DNA of 38,070 nt from a virus: positions 1-38,070 of the IMG/VR virus record IMGVR_UViG_3300005536_000289, one strand, 5' to 3'. Each line of letters begins with the position of its first letter. Position 1 is the stretch's first letter. Below, one piece after another: positions 1,943-19,844 of this stretch. A program made the translations under genes and the position numbers. The notes beneath the pieces were generated by a model that saw nothing but the letters and a program-made list of their open reading frames with translations, was not told the origin of the DNA and did no database searches.

Positions 1943-4078
1943 ATGAGCGCAACCGAACCCAAGCAAACCGCACCCGAAAGCGACGTCGCCAACCTACTCC
2001 CCCCGGAGTTAAAGGCTACCGGCTGGAGACTCCACCAGGCCGGCGAAAAATGGCGCGCCAAAAACCAAACCCTCGGCCTTTTCTCCTCCGCGTGTGACTA
2101 CCCAGGAGACGCGATCGAGGCCGCTCGAAAACTCGCCGCCGGCCAGAAATCGATCCTCGACGGTCGACTCGGGACCATTACCTTTACAGACCCGGATCCG
2201 CCAGGGAGCGCCGGCGAGATGATCCGCTGTCCTGAATGCGGAATCGCCGACGAGCTCGAGCCGAAGTTTGTCGACAACAAGCTAGTCAGTTTCACTTGCC
2301 CGCGCGGCCACGAATTCAACGGCAACGAGTCGAAGTCGAAACCAGCCGGAAAAAAGAAAACGCCGGCGCCCGAGATCCCGAAGGACGCTTTTGCTTTTTA
2401 TGTCGAGCTCAAATACCTCGACGCCTCCACCACCAACGCTCGCCAGATATTCGACGAAGTAAAACTCGCCGAACTCGCCGCCTCAGTCGCCGATCGCGGA
2501 ATTCTCGAGCCGCTGATCGTCCGGCCAGGAAAGAAACCCGGCCGTTATGAAATCGTCGCCGGCGAGCGACGCTTTCGCGCCGCCAAGATCGCAAAGCTCC
2601 CCCTGGTCCCGATCATTCTCCGGAACCTCACGGACGCCGAGGCCGAAGAGATCCAGACAATCGAAAACGACCAGCGCGAGGACCTCAACGCCTTCGAGCG
2701 AGGCGCCGGTTACATAAAACTGATCGAGCGCCATGGCCACACACCCGAAACGCTCGCCGCGGCCGTGCAAAAATCGAAAACCTTCATCTACGACCAGATC
2801 AAACTCGCGAGGCTCCCCGAGCGCGCGCAAAAGGCCCTACTCGAGGGAACGATCCCGCAGTCGACCGCCACGCTGATTGCCCGCATCCCCAGCGAGAAAC
2901 GACGCGAAGCCGCGGCCGAAGAGATCGTCGGAGCAAAGCCCTACCCGTCGGCGACCTATACCAACGACCAGCTCAGTTTTCGCCAGGCAAAAAGTTTGAT
3001 CGAGCGAAACTTTTGCACTCAGCTAAAAGGCGCGCCCTTTAATCGCGACGACGCGACCCTGGTCCCGGCCGCCGGCGCCTGTTCCACTTGCCCCAAACTC
3101 ACCGGCAACAACCGGATCGAATTCCCGGAAGGCCGTGCGGACGTCTGCACCGATCCGCAATGCTTCAACCAGAAGATCGCCGCCCACGATGCCCGGACCA
3201 GGACTAAGGCAAAGGAAAACGAGATCAAGGTCCTGTCCGCTTCCGAAACTAAGAAGCTTTTCAGCTACGGAGAGCTCAACCACTACAACGCCGGCGCCGC
3301 CTACCTCGACCTCGCCGAACAATGCAACCTCGACAAACAGAAGAAAAAACGGAGCTACAAACAGCTCCTCGGCGACGCCGTCGCGCCTGTCCTCGCCATC
3401 AACCCGCAAAGCCACCGCGCCCACTACCTTGTGACCAGGAAAGAAGCCGCGCCGATCCTCCTGAAAACTCACAACATCAAGATCAGTGTGCCGAGCCCGT
3501 CGGCCTCCGGATCCAAAGCGAAGAAGGACCCGCAATCCGAAGCCAAACGCCAGCTCGAGCAAAATGTTTTTGAGCTTGCCGTCCAACTCGCCGGCGAGGA
3601 AATCGCGCTCCAGGCCGAAGTCGCCGGCGCCGTGATCTCACGCTCGCCCGGAGCCTCCGAGTACATGAAACCGGTCGCGCTCCTCATGTTCGAGAACTCC
3701 CTCAACATCGGCGACGGAGACGCGGAGGAGCGCATCGCGATCCGCTTTGGCCTAATTTCGCCACCGAAGGAAAAGTCGAAGGCGACAAAAAAACACTTGA
3801 GCCGCAACGTCACGGCTTGGAAAGCCCTCCAGAAACTCGTCGAAAAAGGGAGCCCGAGCTCCTCGGCCGAACAGATTTTCGGCGCAGCTTTGCAAATGGA
3901 ATTCGTCGCCGATAGTTACGGCCACAAACTCGACGATCGCCAACAACGGATCCTCAAAATGTTCCCGCGCGTCGGCGCCTTCGAGTCCTACCTGGTCCGC
4001 GCGCGTGAACAGCTCACCAAACCGCCCGAGGCCGCGCCGGCGAAAACGAAAGCCGCCGCGGGAGGCCGCGGGAAATGA
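1943..4078 (+). CDS. Large ParB/Spo0J-family protein with zinc modules
   Basis: The 711-residue protein has four visible parts. The N-terminal 125 residues include a zinc-ribbon-like pair (CPEC at 96-99, then CPRGH near 119). Residues about 155-250 form a ParB N-terminal domain with the nucleotide-binding motif GERRFRAA near 206 and the ENDQREDLNAFE motif near 240. A helix-turn-helix of the ParB/KorB type follows (about 253-300). A second Cys module (CSTCPK near 379, CTDPQC near 400) precedes a long helical C-terminal region and a Lys/Ala-rich tail. Typical ParB proteins are about 280-350 residues and clamp onto parS DNA using CTP; the doubled length and Cys modules are known in some phage and plasmid homologues. 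No ParA-type ATPase is in the window. A GGAAAGGGAA ribosome binding site precedes the ATG. It could partition the genome, occlude other DNA transactions or regulate transcription. Confidence 0.88.
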   Translation: MSATEPKQTAPESDVANLLPPELKATGWRLHQAGEKWRAKNQTLGLFSSACDYPGDAIEAARKLAAGQKSILDGRLGTITFTDPDPPGSAGEMIRCPECGIADELEPKFVDNKLVSFTCPRGHEFNGNESKSKPAGKKKTPAPEIPKDAFAFYVELKYLDASTTNARQIFDEVKLAELAASVADRGILEPLIVRPGKKPGRYEIVAGERRFRAAKIAKLPLVPIILRNLTDAEAEEIQTIENDQREDLNAFERGAGYIKLIERHGHTPETLAAAVQKSKTFIYDQIKLARLPERAQKALLEGTIPQSTATLIARIPSEKRREAAAEEIVGAKPYPSATYTNDQLSFRQAKSLIERNFCTQLKGAPFNRDDATLVPAAGACSTCPKLTGNNRIEFPEGRADVCTDPQCFNQKIAAHDARTRTKAKENEIKVLSASETKKLFSYGELNHYNAGAAYLDLAEQCNLDKQKKKRSYKQLLGDAVAPVLAINPQSHRAHYLVTRKEAAPILLKTHNIKISVPSPSASGSKAKKDPQSEAKRQLEQNVFELAVQLAGEEIALQAEVAGAVISRSPGASEYMKPVALLMFENSLNIGDGDAEERIAIRFGLISPPKEKSKATKKHLSRNVTAWKALQKLVEKGSPSSSAEQIFGAALQMEFVADSYGHKLDDRQQRILKMFPRVGAFESYLVRAREQLTKPPEAAPAKTKAAAGGRGK

Positions 4079-5578: not shown

Positions 5579-6579
5579 AACCCGAGCTCCGCCTGGTCAG
5601 AGATGCAACGGCGCCGCGCCTCGAGATGCGCGACCCGGTTGTCCTGTACTTGTCGACACTCGGCCGAAGTGGCCGGCGGACCATGAAATCGAAACTCGAA
5701 ACACTCAAGCGACTCCTACAACTCGAGACCCTCGAGCCGCGCGAGCTTTGTGTTGTCGCTTTTGCAGGAAAGGCCGCCCTCCAGGATGCCGGCGCCGCAC
5801 CGTCGACCATTAACGCGACCCTTTGCGCTCTAAAGGGGGTCGCGCGCGCAGCCTGGCAAACTGGCCAGCTCACCGCGGAGGACCTCCAGAAAGTCCGCGA
5901 CGTTCGATCTGTCCGAGGATCCCGACTCGCCGCCGGCCGCGAACACACGCCCAAAGAATTGGAGGACGCCCTCGCCGCCTGTATGCGTGACAAATCGCCG
6001 GCCGGAGTCCGCGACGCGGCCATCATCGCCGTCCAATACAACCTCGGCTGCAGACGCGCCGAATGCCCAAGCCTCGATCTCAACGACTACTCCCCGACCA
6101 GCCAAACGATCCTGGTCAAAGGCAAAGGCGACAAAGAAAGGATCGGCTACACAGTCGACAAGGGAGCGAGCGCAGCGATCGCCGGCTGGCTCGACGCGCG
6201 CGGACTCAAACCGGGCCCGCTATTTTGTCCGGTCACTCGAGACGGAAAAATCATTCTCCGCCGCTTAACCGACCAGGCCATCTACAACGCGATCACAAAA
6301 AGAGGACGCGAAGCCGGGATCCCCAACTTCACGCCCCACAATCTTCGCCGAACCTTTGCCACCGAGCTCCTCGAGCGCGGCGCCGACGTCTTGGTTGTCC
6401 AACGACTCCTCGGCCATGCCAGCGTCGACACAACCAGACTCTACGACCGCCGCGGCGACGGAGCGCACCGTCGCGCCGCCGGTCTGCTTTCCCTTCCCTA
6501 CCAAGACCAAAAACAACCCGAGCTCCCATGGGGAGACGGAAAAACGAAAGGACCAAAAACAGAAACGGCCCCCGCGTAG
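5575..6579 (+). CDS. Tyrosine site-specific recombinase (integrase/Xer family)
   Basis: The catalytic set of the family is complete: Arg160 with Glu163 in GCRRAEC, Lys in the VKGKGDKER turn near 187, His255 and Arg258 in PHNLRRTF, His281 in LLGHAS, and Tyr290 in TRLYDR. The first 110 residues form the usual helical core-binding domain. At 334 residues it matches Xer-type recombinases and compact integrases, without an obvious extra arm-binding domain. I chose TTG 5575 (overlapping the previous stop, GGGAGA about 10 nt upstream); an ATG at 5470 would overlap the upstream gene by over 100 nt. Such enzymes integrate phage DNA or resolve replicon dimers. Lying in one operon with ParB and an initiator-like gene, dimer resolution is at least as likely as integration. 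The C-terminal tail is Lys/Pro-rich. Confidence 0.93.
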   Translation: MKPELRLVRDATAPRLEMRDPVVLYLSTLGRSGRRTMKSKLETLKRLLQLETLEPRELCVVAFAGKAALQDAGAAPSTINATLCALKGVARAAWQTGQLTAEDLQKVRDVRSVRGSRLAAGREHTPKELEDALAACMRDKSPAGVRDAAIIAVQYNLGCRRAECPSLDLNDYSPTSQTILVKGKGDKERIGYTVDKGASAAIAGWLDARGLKPGPLFCPVTRDGKIILRRLTDQAIYNAITKRGREAGIPNFTPHNLRRTFATELLERGADVLVVQRLLGHASVDTTRLYDRRGDGAHRRAAGLLSLPYQDQKQPELPWGDGKTKGPKTETAPA

Positions 6580-6669
6580 CGAGCGCCGACCGCGGGGACC
6601 GAATCAATTTTTTCGCACCAACTGAACCCAAGGAAGGGCCCGACGTAGCAGAGAGCCGACCGGCGGACC
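6575..6669 (+). repeat. Imperfect direct repeat around the end of the recombinase gene
   Basis: CGTAGC followed by GCCGACCG and GGACC appears at 6575-6600, where it overlaps the recombinase stop, and again at 6644-6669, with a variable 5-6 nt stretch inside each copy. The copies lie in the 180-nt gap after the recombinase gene, where attachment or resolution sites are often found. Similarity is partial, so chance in GC-rich DNA is not excluded. Confidence 0.3.
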
Positions 6670-6700
6670 CAACCCCCAACAATTAAACCCGAGCGCGCCG

Positions 6701-6722
6701 AGTCTAGGCCCACGCCTGGACT
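6701..6722. other. Inverted repeat downstream of the recombinase (possible recombination core or terminator)
   Basis: AGTCTAGGC (6701-6709) and GCCTGGACT (6714-6722) pair over 9 bp with one wobble around the centre CCAC. Tyrosine recombinase cores are built from arms of 9-13 bp around a short spacer, though usually 6-8 nt, so four is short. It could also fold in RNA as a hairpin; no U-run follows, so a classical terminator is unlikely. Confidence 0.35.
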
Positions 6723-6759
6723 ATGTCAATTAACTCAGTCAAACGAAAGGCAAAACGCA

Positions 6760-7203
6760 ATGAAAGACCCGAAAGACCTCCCCGGAGGCCAAGGCCGTCA
6801 GACAGCAGACACCAGCGCCACAGGATCGGCGCCGGCGAGATCTGAAACCGAAAGCGAGAAACCGACCGGCGAGCTCGAGCGCGTCGACGAAGGAAACAAA
6901 ACGGACGAGACCCACGACAAGGCGCGCGCGGCCGGCGCCTCGACGGGAATCGTGGAAACCGCGGAGACCAACTCGGCGCCGCTCGCCGGCGGCTTTGAAC
7001 CGTTTCGCCTCTATGCAAATAGAGCGCTCCGACGGAACCCGGCCGCGATGAAGATCAACCACATGGACCGCGAACAAACGCTCACGGAGATCACGCCCGA
7101 CGGCCAGCTCCGTCTCGAATTGGACGGCGCCGCGACGCTGATTCCCTTTGACGATCGCGTGATCCCGACTGTCCTCGAGCAACTCTACGGAGTGAGGGAG
7201 TAG
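6760..7203 (+). CDS. Hypothetical protein, disordered N-terminus
   Basis: An AAAGG ribosome binding site precedes the ATG. Of 147 residues the first 80 or so are Gly/Ser/Thr/Glu-rich and likely disordered. The C-terminal 65 residues look folded (FEPFRLYANRALRRNPAAMK, then TLTEITPDGQLRLELDG). I do not recognise the family. It is the first gene after the recombinase and its 180-nt gap, so it may open a separate early transcript. Confidence 0.6.
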   Translation: MKDPKDLPGGQGRQTADTSATGSAPARSETESEKPTGELERVDEGNKTDETHDKARAAGASTGIVETAETNSAPLAGGFEPFRLYANRALRRNPAAMKINHMDREQTLTEITPDGQLRLELDGAATLIPFDDRVIPTVLEQLYGVRE

Positions 7204-7497: not shown

Positions 7498-8112
7498 ATG
7501 AACGTCCGAACCATCGAAGTCCCGGCCGAGCTGGCCAGATTCAAACTTGACGAATACAAAGCCCTCCGCGAGAACCAGCGCACCACCGAGGACCGTCTCC
7601 TCGAGCGCGCCTACAAGGCCGTCGCCGGCGGCGCCCGCGTGATCGATATCAGCGAGGCCTTTAGGTCGACCGGCTTAAACGAACAAGGCCAGCCACGCCT
7701 CGCGATCGCGCGCGCCGACGGGAAATTCTGCTGCTTTCGCCACGACGCCGAATTCCAATCACACCGGATCTTGCCCTCCGGATATCGGCCCGGCTTTACC
7801 ATCAATGAGACCTGGAACAGCCTCGCGAAGCGAGCCAACATTCTCCTCCCGATCGGAGTTTTCGGAGCCGTTCCCCAAAATAACCGCGTCGGTTTTGTCC
7901 GCACCGCGGTCCCGCACATTCCACCGAGCGCGCGGCCGGCCTACAAACTCGAGAACTACCACATTCTTTTCGAAGTGAAGGAATGGGAGCGCTACAACGT
8001 CGACCCCTATTTGTTGAAACGGATCTCCGGCTACCTCTTCATCGTCGAGGCCGAATGGGAGCTCACCGAGCTCGAGGCCTCGCTCCTGGGTTCAATGTTG
8101 GAGGGGAAATAA
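7498..8112 (+). CDS. Hypothetical early protein, well expressed by its ribosome binding site
   Basis: ATG 7498 follows GAAGGAGG at a good distance; the frame opens farther upstream inside the hairpin leader and has no comparable site there. The 204-residue protein starts with a helical stretch (residues 8-50) and continues as a mixed alpha/beta protein: a DGKFCCFRHDAEF segment near 75-90, a hydrophobic ILLPIGVFGAVP stretch near 120, and FIVEAEWELTELEASLLGSM at the end. There is no signal peptide. I do not recognise it. The strong translation signal suggests an abundant early protein. Confidence 0.65.
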   Translation: MNVRTIEVPAELARFKLDEYKALRENQRTTEDRLLERAYKAVAGGARVIDISEAFRSTGLNEQGQPRLAIARADGKFCCFRHDAEFQSHRILPSGYRPGFTINETWNSLAKRANILLPIGVFGAVPQNNRVGFVRTAVPHIPPSARPAYKLENYHILFEVKEWERYNVDPYLLKRISGYLFIVEAEWELTELEASLLGSMLEGK

Positions 8113-8113
8113 A

Positions 8114-8407
8114 ATGTCAGTCGACAAGGACCAGCTCCTAATGTTCCAAGCCCAGCGCTACATGGAAACCCTCGGCGTCCGCGCCGTGAATCTAACGCTC
8201 GACCTTGAGATCGCGATCGGAATGATCGGCTTTGTCCAACTTGGACTCCGACACCCGGAGGCCAACAGAACACCGACCGCCGAAATGATGCGAGCGTTTC
8301 TCAATCAACTAATCGGCCAGATCGATCCGAAGTGCGGCCCGCTCTATGAAATTCTGATGAGAGGCTTCGACGAGGACTTCGACGTAATAAGGAAGCCTGG
8401 ACCGTGA
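8114..8407 (+). CDS. Hypothetical helical protein
   Basis: The 97-residue product is almost entirely helical by pattern (DQLLMFQAQRYMETLGVRAV, then LDLEIAIGMIGFVQLGLRH). A GGAGGGGAAA ribosome binding site overlaps the end of the upstream gene and the start lies 1 nt after its stop. No family is recognised. The stop shares 4 nt with the next gene (GTGA), so expression is coupled. Confidence 0.6.
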   Translation: MSVDKDQLLMFQAQRYMETLGVRAVNLTLDLEIAIGMIGFVQLGLRHPEANRTPTAEMMRAFLNQLIGQIDPKCGPLYEILMRGFDEDFDVIRKPGP

Positions 8408-10822: not shown

Positions 10823-11040
10823 AGGCGACGATCCGGATCACAAAATACGACTTCCACGAAGGCCGGCCGGCCGAGGAGTCGATTGTCCGAGTAACCGAGA
10901 TCACACATTGCGTCCCGATGCGCGGAGGCTATTCGTTGATCATGCTCACCAACGGAAGCTCGATCGCCGTCGTCGACTCAATCGAGGAACTCGAGCATAA
11001 GATCGACGCGTCCGAAGGCCTGGTCCCGGAAACATCTTAA
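10819..11040 (+). CDS. Hypothetical 73-residue beta-rich protein
   Basis: Starting in the ATGA overlap, this protein reads as successive beta strands (ATIRITKYDF, ESIVRVTEITHCVPM, YSLIMLTNGSSIAVVDS) with a terminal helix, which would suit a small barrel or SH3-like fold. The family is not known to me. It is the last gene of the early block before a 124-nt gap (11041-11164) in which I see no clear signal beyond a short A-run after the stop. Confidence 0.5.
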   Translation: MKATIRITKYDFHEGRPAEESIVRVTEITHCVPMRGGYSLIMLTNGSSIAVVDSIEELEHKIDASEGLVPETS

Positions 11041-11164
11041 AAAAACCTACCGCCCTCTGTTACTCTACGCTTGGCCACCACTCGCAACACGGCCGCCCTC
11101 CCGCTGGTCCGCCTGGAAAACCGTCGACACGCATCTAAACCCTGGGGAAGTTTTTCTCGAACCG

Positions 11165-11578
11165 ATGCAAACCGAAACCGCAGCCCGACAGCCCGGCCCT
11201 CCCGTACCTACAACCAACGCCTACGATCGCCGCCGAAAAAGAGGCCAGCGCCTCCTCGCGCGGCTTTCACGCCTGTCCTCCGACTACCCCGAATTCAAAA
11301 CCGCGATCGGCGAGTCCCTCGACCTCGTCACCATCCAGATCAACCGAAACCCTGAGAGCGACCGTCAACTGATTCTTCACGCGGTCCACCTCGGAGCCTG
11401 GACCATCGAAGAACTCGTGGACGAAACAAAACTCACCCGGGTCGAGATCCAAAGGATTCTCGACGAACTCCACGCCGCGAAAACCATCCTTCGCAAAGTG
11501 TCTCAGGAAAAGCCCGCGCTCCGCGGACGCCCCAAAATCCTCTGGCTGCCGGCGCCGAACCACCAGCCCGAACCCTAA
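11165..11578 (+). CDS. Winged-helix-like putative transcription regulator
   Basis: Residues about 70-125 of this 137-residue protein show a winged-helix pattern: helix (QLILHAVHLGAWT), a classical helix-turn-helix (TIEELVDETKLTRVEIQRIL) and a basic wing (ILRKVSQEKPALRGRPKILW). The N-terminal part is basic and likely disordered. It is flanked by gaps of 124 and 201 nt and lies just before the lysis and virion genes, so it may be a late-gene activator or a repressor. It is the best candidate regulator in the window besides the protein at 196-528. No CI- or Cro-like protein was seen. Confidence 0.6.
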   Translation: MQTETAARQPGPPVPTTNAYDRRRKRGQRLLARLSRLSSDYPEFKTAIGESLDLVTIQINRNPESDRQLILHAVHLGAWTIEELVDETKLTRVEIQRILDELHAAKTILRKVSQEKPALRGRPKILWLPAPNHQPEP

Positions 11579-11779
11579 TTCCCAACTCAGCCAAAAATAA
11601 ACTCCGCCGTCGGCCTTATTGTCGTCGATGCGGGCGATCGTCCGCGGAGCCACCCTCCCGGCCGACTTTCTAGTCCCTTCCAAGCGCCGGTCACAAGTCC
11701 CGAACGACTCAGACCGCTAGGAACGAAAGAGCCAGCCTAAAACCTCCGCACGAGAAGGGACGACGCCCGCGCTCCCACC
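11579..11779. other. Gap between early and late genes
   Basis: The 201-nt gap separates the winged-helix gene from the lysis block, making it a logical site for a late promoter or a transcription control point. It has a nested dyad (GCGGGCGATCGTCCGC around 11633-11648, and CTCCGC/GCGGAG outside it). I see no convincing promoter hexamers or U-rich terminator. Confidence 0.35.
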
Positions 11780-12715
11780 ATGCGAACGCTAACCAGCCAA
11801 CACCTCCAGAAACTCTTCCGTGGCCTCAGCCAGGCCAAGGCCAACGAATACGCGCCCCACTTTTCCGCCGCGGCCGATGAAGCAAAGATCAACACACGAG
11901 CGCGACTCTGCGCGTTCGTTGCCCAGCTTGGCCACGAATCGGTGGACCTCCAACACCTGAAGGAAATCTGGGGACCAACGCCGGCGCAGAAACGCTATGA
12001 CACACGCGTCGATCTGGGGAACACTCCCGAGGCCGACGGCGACGGGAAGCTCTACATGGGCCGCGGCGGCCTGCAGCGAACGGGGAAAACGAATTATCGC
12101 CGCTTCCAGGAAGCCACCGGCGTCCCGGTCCTCGCAAATCCCAAACTGCTCGAACTGCCAGAACACGCCTTCCGGTCCGACGCCCTTTACTGGAACGACA
12201 ACAATCTCAACCGGCTCGCCGACCAGCTCACCCTACGCGGCGACGCGAAGGATCTGGCTACCTTCGACAAAATCACGAAGCGGATCAATGGCGGCTACAA
12301 CGGCAAAGTCGATCGCCAGCGCCGCTACCTGGTAGCGATCGCCACTCTGCCGGCCGAACTCTTCGCGCCCGAACTCGCTCCGCCGGCGCACGGTTATCCC
12401 CCGCCAGTACAGACGTCCGCACTCGATCGCGTCAACTCCCACGTCAACCCACCGGCGCCCACTACGGAGCCGGAGAAACCGGTTGTCGACCCCGACAAAG
12501 TCCTCCTCGAAAAACTCGCCAAACACGAAGGCGCGCAAACCGTAGCCAAGAGCCTGGGAGCCCGACTCGCCAAACCCGCTGTCGTCGTTGCCGGCGCTCT
12601 GGCCGGCGGAAACGTCTACGCCTGGATCGCCCTGGCCGTCATCGTCGCCGCCCTCGCCCTGTACGCCTACAAGAACCGCGCGAGACTCCGCGCCCTCCTG
12701 GAAGGGATTTTATGA
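11780..12715 (+). CDS. GH19-type endolysin with C-terminal membrane segment
   Basis: Residues 1-200 match phage glycoside hydrolase 19 endolysins: the catalytic Glu53 in AFVAQLGHES, a second acidic residue at Glu62, the substrate-cleft motif GRGGLQRTGKTNYRRF near 94-109, and ITKRINGGYNGKVDRQRRY near 170-188. GH19 enzymes cut the glycan strands of peptidoglycan. A Pro/Thr-rich linker follows, then a Gly/Ala region and one clear transmembrane helix near 280-297 (AWIALAVIVAALALYAYK) with a basic end. Classical soluble endolysins lack such a tail; the anchor may restrict access to the wall until membrane energy collapses, or may link the enzyme to the virion or membrane. The stop overlaps the next start by 4 nt. 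Confidence 0.85.
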   Translation: MRTLTSQHLQKLFRGLSQAKANEYAPHFSAAADEAKINTRARLCAFVAQLGHESVDLQHLKEIWGPTPAQKRYDTRVDLGNTPEADGDGKLYMGRGGLQRTGKTNYRRFQEATGVPVLANPKLLELPEHAFRSDALYWNDNNLNRLADQLTLRGDAKDLATFDKITKRINGGYNGKVDRQRRYLVAIATLPAELFAPELAPPAHGYPPPVQTSALDRVNSHVNPPAPTTEPEKPVVDPDKVLLEKLAKHEGAQTVAKSLGARLAKPAVVVAGALAGGNVYAWIALAVIVAALALYAYKNRARLRALLEGIL

Positions 12716-13227
12716 GCGCCGAAACGAAGGAAGTCTCCGACCGGATCGACCAACTAATCGATCAGCTGCCCCAGGGCCGAACCGCGCGAGCCCTCGGCGC
12801 CGTCCGCCGGCATCCCTACATTGCGCTCGGGTTCGCCGTTGCCCTGTTCTACCTGGTCCTCGTTTTTGGGCCCGCGTTTTTCCTCGGAATACGCGAGAGC
12901 TTCAGCAACCGCGCGATCGAAAAAACCAAGGTCGAAGCCGCCGCAGAAAAAAACGCCAGCGATCAGGAGAAAATCAACGCCGGCCAATTTGAGATCGAGC
13001 GCAAAGCCGAGGACCTAAACCGTGAACAAGTACTGAAGCCGAAACGCGAAGAGGCCGCCGCCAACCTGGCCGAGGCCACCCGACGAAGGAAAGCCGCCGA
13101 GGAACTTTATGAGAAAAACCGCAACGCTCGCCGTCTCCCTGATCCTAACGATCTCAATTTCCGCCGGCGTAACTGCTCAGACCTCGCCGAACTCTACCCG
13201 GGCGAACGCTTCGCCGGCTGCCAGTAG
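12712..13227 (+). CDS. Inner-membrane coiled-coil protein, i-spanin candidate
   Basis: This 171-residue protein has a cytoplasmic-type N-terminus, one transmembrane segment at about 36-60 (YIALGFAVALFYLVLVFGPAF) and a long charged coiled coil (about 68-135) ending in a short segment with two cysteines (CSDLAELYPGERFAGC). That is the build of inner-membrane spanins (Rz type), which bridge to an outer-membrane partner and disrupt the outer membrane at lysis. The last 119 nt are shared, in another frame, with the next gene, as is typical of Rz/Rz1 pairs. It directly follows the endolysin. Identification rests on layout, not on sequence similarity. Confidence 0.55.
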   Translation: MSAETKEVSDRIDQLIDQLPQGRTARALGAVRRHPYIALGFAVALFYLVLVFGPAFFLGIRESFSNRAIEKTKVEAAAEKNASDQEKINAGQFEIERKAEDLNREQVLKPKREEAAANLAEATRRRKAAEELYEKNRNARRLPDPNDLNFRRRNCSDLAELYPGERFAGCQ

Positions 13228-13648
13228 CACCGTCCACGAACTCGGCCACGCCTCCGGTAATATCCCCGCCAGTAATACATCGGGAGTAATACAACCGGAG
13301 AAGGAACTCACGCCCGACCAGGCTATCGCCCTCCTGATCGCCGACCTCAAAGAGCTCCGCAAGCTTCACGAAGAAACCAAAGCCGAGCGCGACGCGGCCG
13401 TCGCCGCCCTCGAGGCCGAAAAGGCCGAGCGTCAGTCGGCCGAGCGCTCCTACTCTTCAGCCGAAAAACAGATCGCCACTTTGAACCAGTCGATCGGACA
13501 CCTGGAGCGAGCCATCGCCCTCCACGAAAAAACGATCGCCCTGGTCGAGAAACAGAGAGACGACGCCAAAGCCGACGCGAAACGCTCGAGGAAGGTCGCG
13601 ATCGTCTCAGCCCTGATCACCGCCGCCAAAGTTTTCGGAATTTTTTGA
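13109..13648 (+). CDS. Exported coiled-coil protein overlapping the i-spanin candidate
   Basis: The gene starts inside the previous one, with AGGAA upstream of ATG. The 179-residue product opens with a clear signal sequence (residues 1-24, MRKTATLAVSLILTISISAG, then VTAQ), continues with a Ser/Thr/Asn-rich linker, then a heptad-rich coiled coil (about 70-150), and ends with a hydrophobic helix (VAIVSALITAAKVFGIF). The o-spanin partner of Rz is normally a short lipoprotein; no lipobox cysteine is present here, and the chain is much longer. The C-terminal hydrophobic segment recalls unimolecular spanins, but those also carry a lipid anchor. It may be an unusual spanin partner or another envelope protein. 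Confidence 0.5.
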   Translation: MRKTATLAVSLILTISISAGVTAQTSPNSTRANASPAASSTVHELGHASGNIPASNTSGVIQPEKELTPDQAIALLIADLKELRKLHEETKAERDAAVAALEAEKAERQSAERSYSSAEKQIATLNQSIGHLERAIALHEKTIALVEKQRDDAKADAKRSRKVAIVSALITAAKVFGIF

Positions 13649-13667
13649 GAAAGAACCTCACCGCATC

Positions 13668-13973
13668 ATGGACGCGAGCATCCTCAACCTTAACCCCACC
13701 GCCGAACGCGCCGAAGGCCCGGCCCGGCCGAGACTGATCGGCGCCATTAAACACGTCGCCGGCGCCGTCGCCTCGATCCTCGTTTCCGCCTTTATCACCT
13801 GGGGATCGTTTCAATACGTCAAAGGCCGAGACGCGAACCGACTCGATAATGTCGAAAAGACCCTGGACAAAACACTTTCGCGGGAGGAATTCAAAACGTG
13901 GACCGAGGAGCAAAGGGATCGACTGACCGAGATCAACAACCGACTCCGGGACCGAGAGAACGCGCGGAGATGA
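13668..13973 (+). CDS. Small single-pass membrane protein, holin-like
   Basis: The 101-residue protein carries one hydrophobic stretch at about 28-48 (HVAGAVASILVSAFITWGSF) followed by a charged coiled coil (about 52-100). Single-span proteins with a soluble charged tail are one of the recognised holin layouts, and the position after endolysin and spanin candidates fits, but no holin family is recognised. It could instead be a further lysis accessory. The stop overlaps the start of the HD-GYP gene (ATGA), so the two are probably translated together. Confidence 0.5.
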   Translation: MDASILNLNPTAERAEGPARPRLIGAIKHVAGAVASILVSAFITWGSFQYVKGRDANRLDNVEKTLDKTLSREEFKTWTEEQRDRLTEINNRLRDRENARR

Positions 13974-14551
13974 AACCGAACTCCGACGAGCTCGAATTCG
14001 CGACTACCACTCTCCTCGTCGCCCTGTCCGCGCGACACCCGGAGACGGCCTTACACTCCGCGCGCGTCAATCTGCTTTCCCTCGATCTTGGCCGCGCGCT
14101 CGAACTCCCCGGCGACCAACTCGAGGCCCTGAAATTCGGATCGTTGCTTCACGATATCGGAAAGCTTTCGACCCCCGACGCCGTTCTCAATAAACCCGGC
14201 CGCCTCGACGATCAGGATTGGAACGCAATCCGCCGCCACCCCTTCGACGGCGCCAGTCTCCTCCGGTCCCTAAACTTTCCCGAAACTATCGCCTCGATTG
14301 TCGAGCAACACCACGAACGCCACGACGGGACCGGCTACCCGTTCGCTTTGCCCTGGCACATGATCTCGACCAACGCTTCGATCGTCGCCGTCGCCGACAC
14401 CTTCGACGCCATCACGGCCGATCGCTGCTACCGACCCGGCGCCGCGCCGGCCGTCGCCCTGCATGAGATCGCCTCCTGGTCAGGGAAGCAATTTAACCCG
14501 ACCGTCGTCGACGCTTTTGTCCAACTACACCGGCCAGCCCTCGCCGCCTAA
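13970..14551 (+). CDS. Stand-alone HD-GYP cyclic-dinucleotide phosphodiesterase
   Basis: All signature residues of the HD-GYP family are present in 193 residues: His29, the HD pair at 61-62 with Lys65 (LLHDIGKL), His90 (IRRHP), His114-His115 and Asp119 (HHERHDGTGYP, with GYP at 122-124), and Asp143/Asp146 in VADTFDAIT. HD-GYP enzymes use two or three metals to hydrolyse c-di-GMP; some Vibrio members cleave 3'3'-cGAMP. The domain spans the entire protein, with no sensor or receiver domain, so activity would be set by expression alone. I chose ATG 13970 in the overlap with the upstream stop; the open frame continues upstream only as a shadow. The location in the lysis/packaging region is unusual. 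Family assignment is firm; the substrate is not. Confidence 0.9.
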   Translation: MKPNSDELEFATTTLLVALSARHPETALHSARVNLLSLDLGRALELPGDQLEALKFGSLLHDIGKLSTPDAVLNKPGRLDDQDWNAIRRHPFDGASLLRSLNFPETIASIVEQHHERHDGTGYPFALPWHMISTNASIVAVADTFDAITADRCYRPGAAPAVALHEIASWSGKQFNPTVVDAFVQLHRPALAA

Positions 14552-14767
14552 ATGCCGACCAACAGCCGCAAAGAACGAATGGCGCTCTTACTGCAGGAGA
14601 TCATCGACGACCACGTCGCGCCCGAAAAACAACACGAACCGATCGTCGCCGAAGCCCGCCAACTTCTCGCCGCCTACTGGCAAAGCCGAGACGCCACCAG
14701 GAGAGACGCCTGGAACCGCGAGCCAGCCTGGATCCGCAACCTCAAAAACCCAACCGCCCGCCGATAA
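14552..14767 (+). CDS. Hypothetical 71-residue protein
   Basis: The ATG directly follows the stop of the HD-GYP gene. The product is helical and charged (RMALLLQEIIDDHVAPEKQ, then ARQLLAAYWQSRDATRRDAW). No motif is recognised. Its tight spacing to both neighbours supports that it is real. Confidence 0.5.
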   Translation: MPTNSRKERMALLLQEIIDDHVAPEKQHEPIVAEARQLLAAYWQSRDATRRDAWNREPAWIRNLKNPTARR

Positions 14768-14779
14768 GGAGCTCACCAC

Positions 14780-15265
14780 ATGAACGCGAAAACACTCACC
14801 GCCAAACTTGAAGCCTGGGAGAAACTGAAAAAACAGCGCGACCGCGTCGATGCCGCCGCCGACGGCCAGCTCGAGGACCTCCTCGTCACCTACGAGAAAA
14901 AGGCCGAGCCCATAAACTCCGAACGCGACCGCAAACTCCAGCCGATCGTCGACCAAATGACGAGCCTGGAGGAGGAACTCCGCGCCGAGATGATCAGGCA
15001 AATAAAACCTGACGGAACGATCGGGATCCCACAGCTTGAGACGACCCTCGCCCTCGCCCAGGTCCTCGCCACCAGCAAACGCGAGATCGACGCCGCGGCC
15101 TTCATTCGAGCGACGCCTCCCCGCCGGCGAAATGATCCCGCGTTCTATGGCTGTCTCACCGTGCAGATCGGGAAGGCCGAAAAATTCCTTGACCAGCCAA
15201 CCATGACTCGCCTGGCCCGGCCAAAAATAACCCACACCGTCGCCATTACACTCAAAGGTGACTGA
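14780..15265 (+). CDS. Gam-like coiled-coil protein (possible nuclease inhibitor)
   Basis: The 161-residue protein begins with about 75 residues of coiled coil (LEAWEKLKKQRDRVDAAADG, then SERDRKLQPIVDQM), followed by a beta/alpha portion (DGTIGIPQLETTLALAQVLA, then AAFIRATPPRRRNDPAFYGC) and a basic strand (RPKITHTVAITLKGD). This ordering resembles the Mu Gam family, dimeric proteins that bind DNA ends and shield them from RecBCD. The sequence likeness is loose, so the call is tentative. A GGAGC ribosome binding site precedes the ATG, and a compact hairpin lies just after the gene. Confidence 0.4.
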   Translation: MNAKTLTAKLEAWEKLKKQRDRVDAAADGQLEDLLVTYEKKAEPINSERDRKLQPIVDQMTSLEEELRAEMIRQIKPDGTIGIPQLETTLALAQVLATSKREIDAAAFIRATPPRRRNDPAFYGCLTVQIGKAEKFLDQPTMTRLARPKITHTVAITLKGD

Positions 15266-15269
15266 GACC

Positions 15270-15286
15270 GCGGGCGTCCCGCCCGC
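15270..15286. other. Compact GC hairpin between genes
   Basis: GCGGGCG (15270-15276) pairs perfectly with CGCCCGC (15280-15286) around a 3-nt loop TCC. It lies in a 35-nt gap 14 nt before the next ATG. No U-run follows, so it is not a standard terminator; it may stabilise the mRNA or be a small palindromic repeat element acquired from a host. Confidence 0.5.
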
Positions 15287-15300
15287 AAGTCTGGAAAGCC

Positions 15301-15888
15301 ATGAGCCTGGAAGTCGAAACAACGTTCGACGGCGACGTCGCCGCCGTGCTTTCACTGGACCGGCAAATTCCTTTTGCCGCAGCCACAACTGCAACCGCGA
15401 TCGCGAAGCGGGCCCAGGGCGAGGCCATCGATGAGATCCGCGACCAGTTCACCACCACAAACCCCTGGTATTTGCCGACGAACTTTTTCGGCGTTCACTT
15501 CACGCCGGCGACCGTCGCCAACCCGAGATCCCAAGTGCATACAAATGCATATTGGCTAAAGGACCACGAAACCGGAGCACTCCGGACGCCACACGAAGGC
15601 GATTTCCTCGCCGTGCCGACTGAGGCCATACAACCCAACCGCCGCCAAGCCATCCCGCAAAGCCAGCGCCCGAAAAACCTCCGCGACGCTTTCGTCCTCC
15701 GGACCGGCCGAGGGCCCAAACTTTTCGAGAGAATCAACGGCCGACTCCGCGCCGTTTACAACCTGGTCCGCAGCGTCCGCATACAAAAACGCTCGACGAT
15801 CGTCGAGCCCACCATCCGAGTCGTCGAGAAAGAATTCGCGCCGACCTTCACCACCAAACTCCTGGAGGCAATTAAGACAGCAAAATGA
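15301..15888 (+). CDS. Putative minor structural protein (tail-completion-like)
   Basis: The 195-residue protein starts with a beta segment, then AATTATAIAKRAQGEAIDEI and a long polar middle, and ends with a basic region (IQKRSTIVEPTIRVVEKEF). The start-region pattern, an Ala-rich helix followed by an amphipathic helix and a WYLP turn, recalls tail completion or neck proteins that stabilise the head-tail junction (gpZ-like). The similarity is faint, and the position ahead of the terminase is unusual for such a protein. The stop overlaps the next gene by 4 nt. Confidence 0.4.
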   Translation: MSLEVETTFDGDVAAVLSLDRQIPFAAATTATAIAKRAQGEAIDEIRDQFTTTNPWYLPTNFFGVHFTPATVANPRSQVHTNAYWLKDHETGALRTPHEGDFLAVPTEAIQPNRRQAIPQSQRPKNLRDAFVLRTGRGPKLFERINGRLRAVYNLVRSVRIQKRSTIVEPTIRVVEKEFAPTFTTKLLEAIKTAK

Positions 15889-16127
15889 TCACCGACACCC
15901 CACCACTCACCGCGGACCGCGCCGTACCGACCGTCGTCACTTCAGATCGAGCCATCGCCGGCCCCGACCAGCCGGACAGCGCCGCGGCCGGAACGAGTAC
16001 TCAATTCAGAACCACGCCGCGCGAGCCGCTCAACCGCCGCGGCCGTCGTCACCTCGCGGGCGAGATCCGTCGCTCCGAACGCCGGATCGACCGCAGCCTC
16101 AGACGTCAGGAACTCGCCGGTCGATAA
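15885..16127 (+). CDS. Hypothetical basic 80-residue protein
   Basis: It starts in an ATGA overlap with the upstream gene. The first half is low-complexity (Thr, Pro, Ala, Asp) and the second half is strongly basic (RRGRRHLAGEIRRSERRIDR), suggesting nucleic-acid binding or a short scaffold role. No family recognised. Confidence 0.45.
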   Translation: MITDTPPLTADRAVPTVVTSDRAIAGPDQPDSAAAGTSTQFRTTPREPLNRRGRRHLAGEIRRSERRIDRSLRRQELAGR

Positions 16128-16141
16128 GTCGAAGAGCTTCC

Positions 16142-16804
16142 ATGCCCGACTTCGATTGGCTCAACCAAAACGTCACTCCGGAGCCACAGCCGAGCTTCGC
16201 CTGGGTAAACGAGGAGCGCGTCGTCGAGAGCCCGAACACTCTCGACCGGCCGCTCAAACTTCTCCGGAAAACACGCCGCCGGCTACAACTGCGCGCTCTT
16301 CGTCAGGAGAAACTCGAGGAGTTTTTCGAAAACCTTCCCAGGCCTGGAGAAACTCTCCACGTTGTCTCGAACGGATCTTTTGATTATTGGAACTTTGCGC
16401 CCGTCACGCTGCAGCTGCTCGGCCGCCCTGCCGTGTTCTACGGATCGACCTGGACCATGAACCGGTCGAATGTCCTTCAACTCCTCAGCCTCTACGATCA
16501 GAAAAAGCTTTCCAGTGTGACGATGTTTTCCGGCCTGTACTTCAAACGCCGGGAGCCGGCCGTCTACACCGCCCTCGCCTCGGGACTGATTGATCGCGGC
16601 CAGCGTTTTCTCTGCTTTGAGAACCACACAAAGATCATGTTGATCGGCGCCGATCCCGATTGGATTGTTATGGAAGGATCCGCAAACTTCACCGCCAACC
16701 CGCGCCTCGAGCAAAACAACATCAGCAATGACCGGGACCTCTTCGATTTTCACAAAACCTGGATGGAGGACCTCCTCGCAAAATGCCGAAGCCAAACGAC
16801 CTAG
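16142..16804 (+). CDS. Phospholipase-D-like (PLD) fold protein
   Basis: The C-terminal third carries one HKD-type motif: His162-x-Lys164 in NHTKIMLIG, followed by GSANFTANPRLEQNN near 179-193, the usual Gly-Ser-Asn arrangement. The middle (HVVSNGSFDYWNFAPVTLQL, VTMFSGLYFKRR) fits the first half of a PLD-like fold, where a clear second HKD motif is absent. Single-HKD members work as dimeric nucleases such as Nuc and EDTA-resistant endonucleases. PLD-like genes next to terminase genes occur in several phage groups, with unknown roles. The last 22 nt overlap the next gene. Confidence 0.7.
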   Translation: MPDFDWLNQNVTPEPQPSFAWVNEERVVESPNTLDRPLKLLRKTRRRLQLRALRQEKLEEFFENLPRPGETLHVVSNGSFDYWNFAPVTLQLLGRPAVFYGSTWTMNRSNVLQLLSLYDQKKLSSVTMFSGLYFKRREPAVYTALASGLIDRGQRFLCFENHTKIMLIGADPDWIVMEGSANFTANPRLEQNNISNDRDLFDFHKTWMEDLLAKCRSQTT

Positions 16805-17223
16805 AAGCGCCTTTGTCAGAATCCGCGCAAAATATGCACAAAATTATTCCAGAGGAGCGCCTCGAGTCCGTCAAAACTCTGCTCTGCCGCGGCCTTGACC
16901 GAACGACGATCCTCCAGTACGCGGCCGAGATGAAATGGGAGTCGGCGCCCGACCAGGTCGACGCCTGGATCTCCGCCGCCCAGCTTCAGCTCGCCGAGGA
17001 CGCCGGCGCGATCGACACCGAAGCCGAACTCGGGAAGGCCATCGCCCGCCTCAATTACCTCTACATGAACGCGGCTAAGGTGCAGGATTTCAAAACCGCG
17101 CTCGCCATCCAAAAAGAGATCAACAAGGTCCTCACTCTCAAAGTGCAAGCAACAGGGACGGCCGGCGGGGCGAAAACAACCGAAGCCACCGCCCGACCCA
17201 AATTAAAGATCGTCGGTAAGTGA
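16783..17223 (+). CDS. Helical protein next to terminase, DNA-binding candidate
   Basis: The 146-residue protein has a helix-turn-helix-like segment (LDRTTILQYAAEMKWESAPD, about 38-57) and a tetratricopeptide-like helical pair (AIARLNYLYMNAAKVQDFKT, then LAIQKEINKVLTL) before a polar basic tail. This layout is common in phage small terminase-type proteins that mark packaging sites, and in Mu-like packaging accessories. The next gene is a better match to the lambda Nu1 type, so this one may be a cofactor. The open frame overlaps the PLD-like gene by 22 nt. Confidence 0.5.
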   Translation: MPKPNDLEAPLSESAQNMHKIIPEERLESVKTLLCRGLDRTTILQYAAEMKWESAPDQVDAWISAAQLQLAEDAGAIDTEAELGKAIARLNYLYMNAAKVQDFKTALAIQKEINKVLTLKVQATGTAGGAKTTEATARPKLKIVGK

Positions 17224-17224
17224 G

Positions 17225-17830
17225 ATGCAGACTTCATTTAACATTCGCGAGCTCGCTCGCCTCACTGGCTGGGATCGAAAGAAGATCTCCGCAGTCTTTG
17301 CCAACCTCGGCGACGAACCCACCCTCGAGGAAATTGTCGCCGCCTTCATCACCGCAAAAAGCCCGGCCGAGACTCCACCGCAATTCTTTTCTCAATCCGA
17401 ACTCCACCGCCTCACCGGTCTCGATCGAAACACTGTGATCGACCGGCTCGACACCGTCGCCTCTCATCCGGGCCCGCGGAACTCCAAGCTTTACGCGCTC
17501 GCCGACGCCCTCCCTGCCCTCATTGCCGGCCGTGACGTGAGTCTCGACGAGATCAAAAAGCGCACCGCCAGCCACAAAGAACGACGCGAAGAAATGGAGC
17601 TCAACAAAGAACTCCGGAAACTCGTCGACTACACCGAGGCCCGGTCGGAGTTTCAGAAAATCTTCAAAGCTTTACACCGACGCCTCGCCGTTAACTTCTG
17701 GCGAGAAAACGCCTCACGCCTGAAGAAGGCCAAAACCGTGGCCGAACTCGCGAAGCTGGGATCGGAAGGCCAAGGAAAGATCTGGGATGCCCTCGCCGCA
17801 AACTACAAGACTATTACAGGAAGCGATTAG
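17225..17830 (+). CDS. Terminase small subunit, Nu1-like
   Basis: Two helix-turn-helix-like repeats are visible in the 201 residues: NIRELARLTGWDRKKISAVF (6-25) and SQSELHRLTGLDRNTVIDRL (about 57-76). Repeated winged-helix elements followed by a helical dimerisation region (DYTEARSEFQKIFKALHRRL, about 140-160) are seen in Nu1/DUF1441-type small terminase subunits. They bind the packaging site and deliver it to the large subunit. The gene overlaps the large subunit by 44 nt, like lambda nu1-A. ATG 17225 comes 1 nt after the upstream stop. Confidence 0.7.
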   Translation: MQTSFNIRELARLTGWDRKKISAVFANLGDEPTLEEIVAAFITAKSPAETPPQFFSQSELHRLTGLDRNTVIDRLDTVASHPGPRNSKLYALADALPALIAGRDVSLDEIKKRTASHKERREEMELNKELRKLVDYTEARSEFQKIFKALHRRLAVNFWRENASRLKKAKTVAELAKLGSEGQGKIWDALAANYKTITGSD

Positions 17831-19844
17831 AGCCGCGATCCCAGACGGATCTCTGCGAGTTTCCACCTGGTCGCCGACCTACCGAGTCCTCAGCCCGGAG
17901 CGCACAAATGCCGAACGAGCCGGCAAATGGAGCAACGCTCCCGTTCCCCACATGGTCGAGCCCATGGACTGGTTCACCGAGCCGGACTGTGAAGAAATCG
18001 TTATCGTCGCCTCTCGACAGATCGCAAAAACCGAGTACGTCAACAACTGCATCGGCTTTGTGATCCACATCGCTCCGGGACCCGTCGCCTACCTCGGCGA
18101 AGAGGAAGGAAAGTCGAAAGCCTGGAAACAGGAATGCTTCGATCTAATGGTCCGCGACACACCGGTCCTCCGCGATCTGGTAAGTGACGGCCGCGGCCGC
18201 AAGTCTGAAAACACAAAAACCGCCGCCACTTTTCCCGGCGGCCGCCTAAATGTCCTCTGGGCCACCTCCCCAGCGACTGTTTCTTCGCGACCGATTCAAT
18301 ACCTCTTCATCGACGAGCGCGACGCCATGGGCCCTTCGAGAGAAGGCGACTCCACCACGATCGCGCGCGGCTCCGTCAAAACCTTCAAAGGGAGCCGAAA
18401 GATTGTCACGATATCGACGCCACGAAACCGGCTGGAGAATCCTCCGGAAGCCCCCGAGGGAACGCCGAGACGGTCTCCGATAGAGCAGGAATACCACTAC
18501 ACCGATCGGAACAAACGCTGGCTGCCCTGCCCTCATTGCGGAGAATTCCAGGTCCTCGCCTGGTATGACGATCGCTGTTGCTGCCCGCCGCGAGACGAGC
18601 CGTGCACGCTGAAGCACGGCCACGTAGCCTGGGATAACGACGAGGCTGCAACCGCCTACTATGTTTGTTTCAACGGATGCGTGATCACCGAAGAGGAACG
18701 CCTTGAAATCCTCGACCGCGGCGAGATGCGCCCCGAAGCACCCTACGTCGACAAACATGGCCTCTGGATCAATGAACTCTACTCGAAGTTTTCCAGCCTT
18801 CCGGATATGGTCACCGCCTACGTCGACGCGAAGCGTGATCCGAGCGGCGAAAAACTAAAGTCCTTTGAAAACACGACGCTGGCCGTTGGTTACGAAGAGC
18901 GCGAAGGCGAGATCGACACCGACGACCTGATCGAACTCCAGGAAACCTACGACCGGAATATTATTCCGGAAGAAGTCCTGATCCTGGTTGCTGCCGTCGA
19001 CGTCCAAAAAAACCGCCTCGAGCTGGAGATCAAGGGCTACGGAATCGGCGACGAGGCTGATGCAAACGCCGCCACCGTGCCGCAATCCTGGGGAATCGAT
19101 TATTTTGCGATCGACGGGGATCCCGCCATGCCGACGGTATGGGATGAGCTTAAACAGGCTCTCGACGCCGTCTACAAAACGCCCAGCGGTCGACAGCTCC
19201 GGATCTCCGCCACCGCGATCGACACCGCCTACCTTTCCCACCGCGTCTATCGATTCGTGCGCCAAAACCGCGGCCGCCGGATCTTCGCGGTCCGCGGCGC
19301 CAACACTCCAGGGAAACCCCTGATCTCGAAACCCACCAGAGTCGGAGATCCGCCGGTCCGCCTCTGGACCATTGGAACGGAGACCGCCAAAGATTCGATC
19401 ACCAACCGTCTCGAGCTGAAAGATAAAACTCAACCTGGCTTTTGCCATTTCGGCTCTCACTACCCGGAACACTATTTCCGACAGCTCCGGGCCGAACAGC
19501 CCGTCGTCCGCTACTACCGCGGCCGCGCCTTCCGATGCTGGGAAAAGATCAAAGACTGGTACCGCAACGAGGCCCTCGACCTCTTCGTCTACTGCGACGC
19601 GGTCCTGGCCATTGCGCTCCGGATTCTCAAAACAAACTTCGCCACCCTCGCCAGAAAAGCCGGCGAAGAGCAAAAGCGCCTGGGCGAGGAAAGCCTCGGA
19701 CCAATCGCCGGGCCACCGGCGCCGGAGCCCGAACCCGAGGAACCGGACGACGACGAACCGGACGAGATCCGGATCAACCTTCGCGCTCGTCGCCGCCTAG
19801 TCCCACGCCGCCGCGGAAACCTCGCCACCGGTTGGAAAAACTAG
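17787..19844 (+). CDS. Terminase large subunit, lambda gpA family
   Basis: The 685-residue protein carries the parts of gpA-type packaging motors. An ATPase has a deviant Walker A (ASRQIAKTE near 75-83, like other gpA proteins) and Walker B YLFIDERDAM near 172-181. A Cys-rich insert follows (CPHC near 250, then further Cys). The RNase H-like nuclease includes VAAVDVQKNRLELE near 403-416 and IDTAYLSHRVYRF near 478. A C-terminal RNEALDLFVYCDAVLA is typical of the family. The extreme end is Pro/Glu-rich, then Arg-rich. It cuts concatemeric DNA and drives it into the prohead. The start at ATG 17787 overlaps the small subunit by 44 nt. Confidence 0.93.
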   Translation: MPSPQTTRLLQEAIRAAIPDGSLRVSTWSPTYRVLSPERTNAERAGKWSNAPVPHMVEPMDWFTEPDCEEIVIVASRQIAKTEYVNNCIGFVIHIAPGPVAYLGEEEGKSKAWKQECFDLMVRDTPVLRDLVSDGRGRKSENTKTAATFPGGRLNVLWATSPATVSSRPIQYLFIDERDAMGPSREGDSTTIARGSVKTFKGSRKIVTISTPRNRLENPPEAPEGTPRRSPIEQEYHYTDRNKRWLPCPHCGEFQVLAWYDDRCCCPPRDEPCTLKHGHVAWDNDEAATAYYVCFNGCVITEEERLEILDRGEMRPEAPYVDKHGLWINELYSKFSSLPDMVTAYVDAKRDPSGEKLKSFENTTLAVGYEEREGEIDTDDLIELQETYDRNIIPEEVLILVAAVDVQKNRLELEIKGYGIGDEADANAATVPQSWGIDYFAIDGDPAMPTVWDELKQALDAVYKTPSGRQLRISATAIDTAYLSHRVYRFVRQNRGRRIFAVRGANTPGKPLISKPTRVGDPPVRLWTIGTETAKDSITNRLELKDKTQPGFCHFGSHYPEHYFRQLRAEQPVVRYYRGRAFRCWEKIKDWYRNEALDLFVYCDAVLAIALRILKTNFATLARKAGEEQKRLGEESLGPIAGPPAPEPEPEEPDDDEPDEIRINLRARRRLVPRRRGNLATGWKN

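Follow-up and report, generated by a model that had tools for sequence, protein, structure and literature searches.

PmGH, a GAF-HD-GYP protein of Persephonella marina (4mcw), is a tri-iron c-di-GMP phosphodiesterase. Its metal ligands are E185, H189, H221, D222, H250, H276, H277 and D305, its activity also requires D183, K225 and D308, and its guanine contacts are R314 and K317 (PMC4159591). A D183A mutant of the enzyme is inactive (PMC4159591). In the trinuclear group of Bellini et al., the members characterised so far have c-di-GMP as substrate, and the reaction may proceed to GMP (PMC4159591; PMC8177086). Other HD-GYP proteins, namely V-cGAP1-3 and PmxA, hydrolyse 3'3'-cGAMP (PMC8177086, PMC9813507, PMC8844925), and a Gln near the active site that is associated with PmxA is not conserved in the V-cGAPs (PMC8177086). 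V-cGAP3 of Vibrio cholerae (5z7c), a 3'3'-cGAMP phosphodiesterase of 463 aa, contains further HD-like stretches in addition to the HD-GYP core.

HD-GYP proteins are not new in phages. Those of jumbo phages were predicted to counter SMODS/CBASS and CRISPR nucleotide signals, and the anti-CBASS hypothesis has thus already been proposed for these viruses (Iyer et al., 2021; PMC7824862). A sargassum virus data set was reported to contain yhjH, a viral gene for a c-di-GMP phosphodiesterase (PMC11295528), and the 462-aa HD-GYP of Microcystis phage MaAM05 is annotated as a cGAMP phosphodiesterase. A published placement of HD-GYPs in lysis cassettes was not found in the open-licence literature, which is weak evidence. 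c-di-GMP is the main bacterial messenger for biofilm formation and motility.

The window analysed here, meaning the whole 38,070-bp stretch, is a viral record listed as linear and hence possibly a fragment. It contains an intact ORF with an ATG start (13970..14551, + strand), the 193-aa product of which is predicted to be a stand-alone HD-GYP phosphodiesterase from its Pfam, PDB sequence and fold matches and its eight metal ligands. Pfam HD_5 (PF13487) covers residues 19-179 with E=1e-29 and a score of 104 against a cut-off of 27 bits, a sequence match far above chance. NCBIfam gave HD matches that were sub-threshold or at the domain level only, and the PHROGs search returned no family matching the protein. 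The nearest PDB sequences by phmmer were V-cGAP3, PmGH, PA4781 and DvhD; V-cGAP3 was the top match at E=1e-33, with a score that adds up several HD stretches.

An AF2 model built from seven homologues (pLDDT 91.4, pTM 0.90) has the fold of solved HD-GYP domains. PmGH was its best PDB match (Z 22.9, rmsd 2.9 Å, 188 residues, 32% identity), followed by PA4781 (4r8z, Z 22.6), DvhD with bound c-di-GMP (9rbz, Z 22.0) and V-cGAP3 (Z 18.7). The highest non-HD-GYP entry was PgpH at Z 16.0, the remainder scored below 14, and the closest predicted viral structures were weak matches only. No second domain was found, as the HD_5 match spans the protein and the model is a single confident domain; the description in an earlier note of a stand-alone enzyme lacking a sensor domain was thus borne out. 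Judged by sequence and predicted structure, the ORF is a real, full-length, single-domain HD-GYP, and its assignment as a putative cyclic-dinucleotide phosphodiesterase is well supported.

Residue roles were mapped from PmGH through alignment (PMC4159591). All eight metal ligands are found in the window protein as E25, H29, H61, D62, H90, H114, H115 and D143, of which H29 to D143 form the H...HD...H...HH...D pattern. Also retained are K65, D146, the GYP at 122-124, R152 and R155; the last two align with R314 and K317 of PmGH, the K317 position being occupied by Arg. The motifs HDIGK, HHExxDGxGYPxxxxxxxI and DxxDAIT..R..R are present, the second as HHERHDGTGYP at 114-124 with I132. The earlier note had stated that all catalytic residues are present. 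This is true of the metal ligands; at the D183 position, however, the alignment places His23 and the catalytic Asp is absent. This substitution lowers confidence in normal activity. The window protein therefore shares with PmGH the whole-domain fold, the eight ligands, the K225 counterpart, the GYP loop and R314, and differs in lacking the GAF domain, in having His at the D183 position and in being encoded in a phage lysis cassette. In the alignment with V-cGAP3, the E185-equivalent carboxylate, kept as E25, is Tyr in V-cGAP3, and the D183-type Asp is missing from both proteins, V-cGAP3 having Ser. Such an Asp is thus not universal in the HD-GYP family and does not define it, and the family membership of the window protein is unaffected. 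Of 104 viral-contig HD-GYPs, 81 have Asp here and four have His (the window, contigs L022 and L025 and the less related L051), and these conservation counts are biased upward because the scans were baited with HD and HHE motifs.

On account of E25, the window protein would belong to the trinuclear group of Bellini et al., though not firmly. The subgroup motif E/D-T-G reads E25-T26-A27 here, and PmGH itself has E-T-Q; since the motif is this loose, the protein is not filed firmly in the trinuclear PmGH/TM0186 subgroup. Moreover, of the seven nearest relatives in phages, four have Ala or Gly at the E25 position, so that a trinuclear site is not constant within the clade. All eight ligands are retained in the window, L022, L025 and L098. 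Loss of a core metal ligand among close relatives was confined to one of seven, the other six keeping all seven core ligands. The exception, L097:902-1516 (47% identity), has H114 replaced by N and E25 by A, and is possibly an inactive or re-purposed copy.

The gene lies in the lysis cassette of the window, and the neighbouring features written here as start..end are on the + strand. Upstream are a GH19-like endolysin (11780..12715; phrog_181 E=1e-52, PF00182 E=2e-4, the latter below its cut-off) and an Rz-like spanin candidate (12712..13227; phrog_89 E=1e-4). An ORF whose translation has hydrophobic ends (13109..13648) overlaps the spanin candidate out of frame, an arrangement resembling an Rz/Rz1 pair; its product has no cysteine for a lipoprotein anchor and is therefore not a typical Rz1 lipoprotein. 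The gene immediately upstream of the HD-GYP (13668..13973) encodes a 101-aa protein whose single transmembrane (TM) segment, seen in the hydropathy profile, precedes a coiled coil. Its TGA stop ends at 13973 and the HD-GYP ATG begins at 13970, giving a 4-base ATGA overlap that confirms the coupling claimed in the earlier note. That note had called the upstream protein holin-like. The term fits only loosely: it is a small single-TM protein of a lysis cassette, and no holin match was obtained in Pfam or PHROGs, holins being so diverse that one may go unmatched in such searches. Counterparts in the same place in L099 and L124 share 32% and 25% identity with it, and that of L099 has a weak Rz-spanin match (E=0.001).

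Directly 3' of the HD-GYP stop is a 71-aa ORF with no Pfam or PHROG match (14552..14767), followed by a Mu Gam-like protein (14780..15265) that has no direct family match of its own and is 33-35% identical to neighbour genes of L022 and L097. In both contigs the Gam-like homologue adjoins the HD-GYP directly upstream, and the one in L022 is recognised by phrog_491 (E=2e-4) and, at a score under the family cut-off, by PF07352 (E=2e-4). Next come a minor tail protein (15301..15888; phrog_1924 E=6e-11), a probable terminase small subunit assigned by position (17225..17830) and a GpA-type terminase large subunit, TerL (17787..19844; phrog_15 E=2e-165). The product of 16142-16804, located in the interval from the minor tail gene to the terminase genes, resembles phrog_20533 and, weakly, an endonuclease family; it is possibly phospholipase D-like. 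No sigma-70-like promoter was detected at 11000-18000, in a weak 7-kb scan for the sigma-70 type only. Bacterial contamination was considered and ruled out, as the HD-GYP overlaps phage genes and its GC3 is 0.76 against 0.68-0.75 in the neighbours.

A single-sequence scan of viral contigs with the window protein gave no matches, and relatives were obtained from alignment-based scans of IMG/VR, which yielded about 100 contigs with an HD-GYP. These are metagenomic fragments, and their gene calls are ORF-based. A genome-contig scan returned generic bacterial HD-GYPs only, and 30 INPHARED matches named 'Bacteriophage sp.' were excluded as phage evidence because they are unverified faecal contigs without annotation. 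The term clade is used here for the window with L022, L098, L097, L124, L099, L102 and L025, whose HD-GYPs share 55, 48, 47, 46, 44, 42 and 40% identity with it respectively. All are about 190-212 aa long and without a sensor domain. In a FastTree of the viral-contig HD-GYPs, built without the later-found L124, the window groups with L022, L097, L098, L099 and L102 (support 0.95), and L025 joins L057 and L024 (support 0.69). Bacterial HD-GYPs were sampled thinly in this tree, and the clade is therefore not claimed to exclude all of them.

The genomic setting recurs throughout the clade. TerL lies downstream on the same strand in all eight members, at 0.6-2.6 kb in seven and at 3.2 kb in the window, and these TerLs span at least three families (phrog_15, phrog_2 and PF17289). 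The HD-GYPs mostly adjoin lysis or small TM genes. L102 shares with the window an integrase (48% identity), the minor tail protein (41%), the small-terminase candidate just before TerL (39%), TerL (43%) and the portal (50%); its HD-GYP overlaps a TM gene and has this minor tail gene as its immediate downstream neighbour. L102 is thus a sister phage of the window with the HD-GYP in the same slot. In L099 and L124 a TM coiled-coil gene overlaps the HD-GYP start, like in the window, and start/stop overlap with a lysis-cassette TM gene is thus seen in the window, L099, L102, L124 and the more distant L058. L022 and L097 have the order Gam-like gene, HD-GYP, endolysin, two TM genes, TerS, TerL, the endolysin being Amidase_2 in L022 and of a family that we read as M15-type in L097. 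The order is HD-GYP, TerS, TerL, portal in L025. In L098, TM genes precede the HD-GYP, a metallopeptidase gene follows it, and the TerL is from a different family. Integrases are encoded by the window (a tyrosine integrase), L098, L102 and L124, and an S24 repressor by L022.

Less related HD-GYPs are found in similar surroundings; part names outside the Pfam and PHROG tables, including PAS-like, are our reading of the sequence. L058 has a TM gene, HD-GYP, tail-anchored coiled coil, TerS and TerL, with overlaps on both sides of the HD-GYP. L052 has a TM gene, TM coiled coil, HD-GYP, M23 endolysin, TerS and TerL, and L117 a TM gene, HD-GYP, TM coiled coil and GH25 endolysin. In L082 and in the set L064/L073/L074/L084, the HD-GYP is followed by a TM coiled coil and then terminase. 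Longer forms also occur, as a REC-HD-GYP between an Amidase_2 endolysin and coiled-coil and TM genes, TerS and TerL in L023, and, in L104, L107 and L049, as HD-GYPs with a PAS-like N-terminal extension and TM coiled-coil genes after them. L039 carries two different HD-GYP genes about 0.8 kb apart in one lysis/packaging region (5818-6777 and 7603-8178), one N-terminally extended and one stand-alone. HD-GYPs are thus seen repeatedly in the lysis/packaging cassettes of phages whose endolysins and terminases differ. In a homology search with a set of terminases, 14 of 35 short HD-GYPs and 7 of 69 long ones had a TerL on the same strand no more than 4.5 kb downstream (Fisher p=6e-4). This count is descriptive, as the queries came partly from the same loci, L098 was miscounted as long through a wrong start codon and group members are non-independent. 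When only phrog_2 and phrog_15 were used, which misses other terminase families, proximity was seen in 3 of 43 non-clade cases.

The tail-anchored partner of L058/L046, which belongs to the distant cassettes and not to that of the window, was used as bait and recovered four contigs, three of which (L058, L046 and L132) have an HD-GYP directly upstream. The fourth, L133, has a cassette of this type (TM gene, partner, TerS, TerL) in which another small gene takes the place of the HD-GYP. This natural replacement, at L133:1575-2187, places an unrelated 99-aa gene beside the partner gene. The cassette therefore does not require the HD-GYP, which is accessory to it. Scans with the Gam-like and holin-like proteins returned only loci already in the set and gave no independent denominator.

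The explanation that we favour, with a probability of about one half, is that the gene is accessory and expressed late by a temperate tailed phage, and that its sensorless HD-GYP would hydrolyse c-di-GMP near lysis. The enzyme would be translationally coupled to lysis-cassette proteins and made late together with the lysis genes, while being dispensable for lysis itself. Hydrolysis of host c-di-GMP would pass via pGpG and might continue to GMP, a trinuclear site being possible with E25. As the c-di-GMP level falls, matrix, cellulose or adhesins may cease to be produced shortly ahead of lysis, making it easier for progeny to leave aggregates or biofilm. Family and fold, the ligands, the start/stop overlaps, the position upstream of TerL in all eight members, the shared slot in L102, the distant cassettes and L133 support this explanation, as does, weakly, the lack of a sigma-70-like promoter at 11000-18000. 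Against it count His23 in place of an Asp that is essential in PmGH, the variability of E25 in the nearest clade mates and the core ligand lost in L097. Position alone is no proof of a lysis-stage role, as the lysis-terminase interval, in which lambda bor sits, is known to tolerate accessory genes.

Recurrence in other phages suggests late erasure of a host signal by the infecting phage. A broader and more tentative proposal, to which we give less than even odds, is a repeatedly recruited lysis-stage module, in which a dinucleotide eraser coupled to small TM coiled-coil proteins would aid release or block late defence. If this is true, phage lysis cassettes would include a component not described before, with c-di-GMP or an immune dinucleotide as the messenger. 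A gene that recurs in otherwise different phages, with eight related copies and distant ones, makes it directly testable whether phages manipulate c-di-GMP during lysis.

The choice of substrate bears on an anti-defence function, in which the HD-GYP would degrade immune dinucleotides such as CBASS 3'3'-cGAMP and shield the phage until burst. Acb1, a 2H phosphoesterase, has a different fold, and phage removal of cyclic nucleotides would be common to it, other anti-CBASS proteins and the window protein if this reading is right. The V-cGAP and PmxA activities lend it weight, as do the top phmmer rank of V-cGAP3 (with the summed score noted above), the lack of a D183-type Asp in both proteins and the same role predicted for jumbo-phage HD-GYPs (PMC7824862), which are likewise phage-encoded, but in large phages rather than a 38-kb record. 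The MaAM05 protein also differs, its annotated neighbours not being lysis genes. We nevertheless consider anti-defence unlikely. The fold matches to PmGH, PA4781 and DvhD exceed that to V-cGAP3, E25 is typical of the PmGH/TM0186 group and absent from V-cGAP3, and no CBASS link was seen; in addition, the sensor-bearing (REC, PAS-like) HD-GYPs of equivalent cassettes fit regulation better than a signal sink. On the fold scores and the Glu, lowering of c-di-GMP, the first role offered in the earlier note, is predicted to be more likely than an anti-CBASS one. Sequence, residues and fold all fit a cyclic-dinucleotide phosphodiesterase, but fold scores and E25 separate c-di-GMP from cGAMP only weakly, and a residue-level comparison of the two specificities does not decide. 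Were the substrate an immune dinucleotide, the protein would act in anti-defence, a role for which only predictions were found with this fold.

Two further explanations, both improbable in our view, concern expression and catalysis. Expressed from the prophage, the HD-GYP could lower c-di-GMP in the lysogen and alter motility, pili or biofilm, for example in superinfection exclusion. The integrases and S24 repressor of the clade, the accessory nature of the gene and a site resembling that of lambda bor would suit such lysogenic conversion, whereas the start and stop codons shared with lysis-cassette genes argue against it, as does the lack of a sigma-70-like promoter in the 7 kb scanned for that promoter type. 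Alternatively, His at the D183 position may cut catalysis, and the protein would work by binding nucleotide or partners such as the coupled TM coiled-coil protein. The inactivity of PmGH D183A (PMC4159591), the His common to the window, L022 and L025, the H114 loss in L097 and the tight coupling to TM coiled-coil genes agree with a weak or regulatory protein. Yet the eight metal ligands are intact in four members, R152 and R155 are kept at the guanine-contact positions, and V-cGAP3 is an active enzyme that likewise lacks the D183-type Asp.

Elsewhere in the window, 1943-4078 encodes a 711-aa protein with a ParB N-terminal domain (PF02195 E=9e-23) and a ParB HTH (PF17762 E=1e-13). Positions 1-192, at the start of the record, consist of repeats of a GYGHQLPNSLQSVGGYLYLR-like unit that are cut by the contig end.
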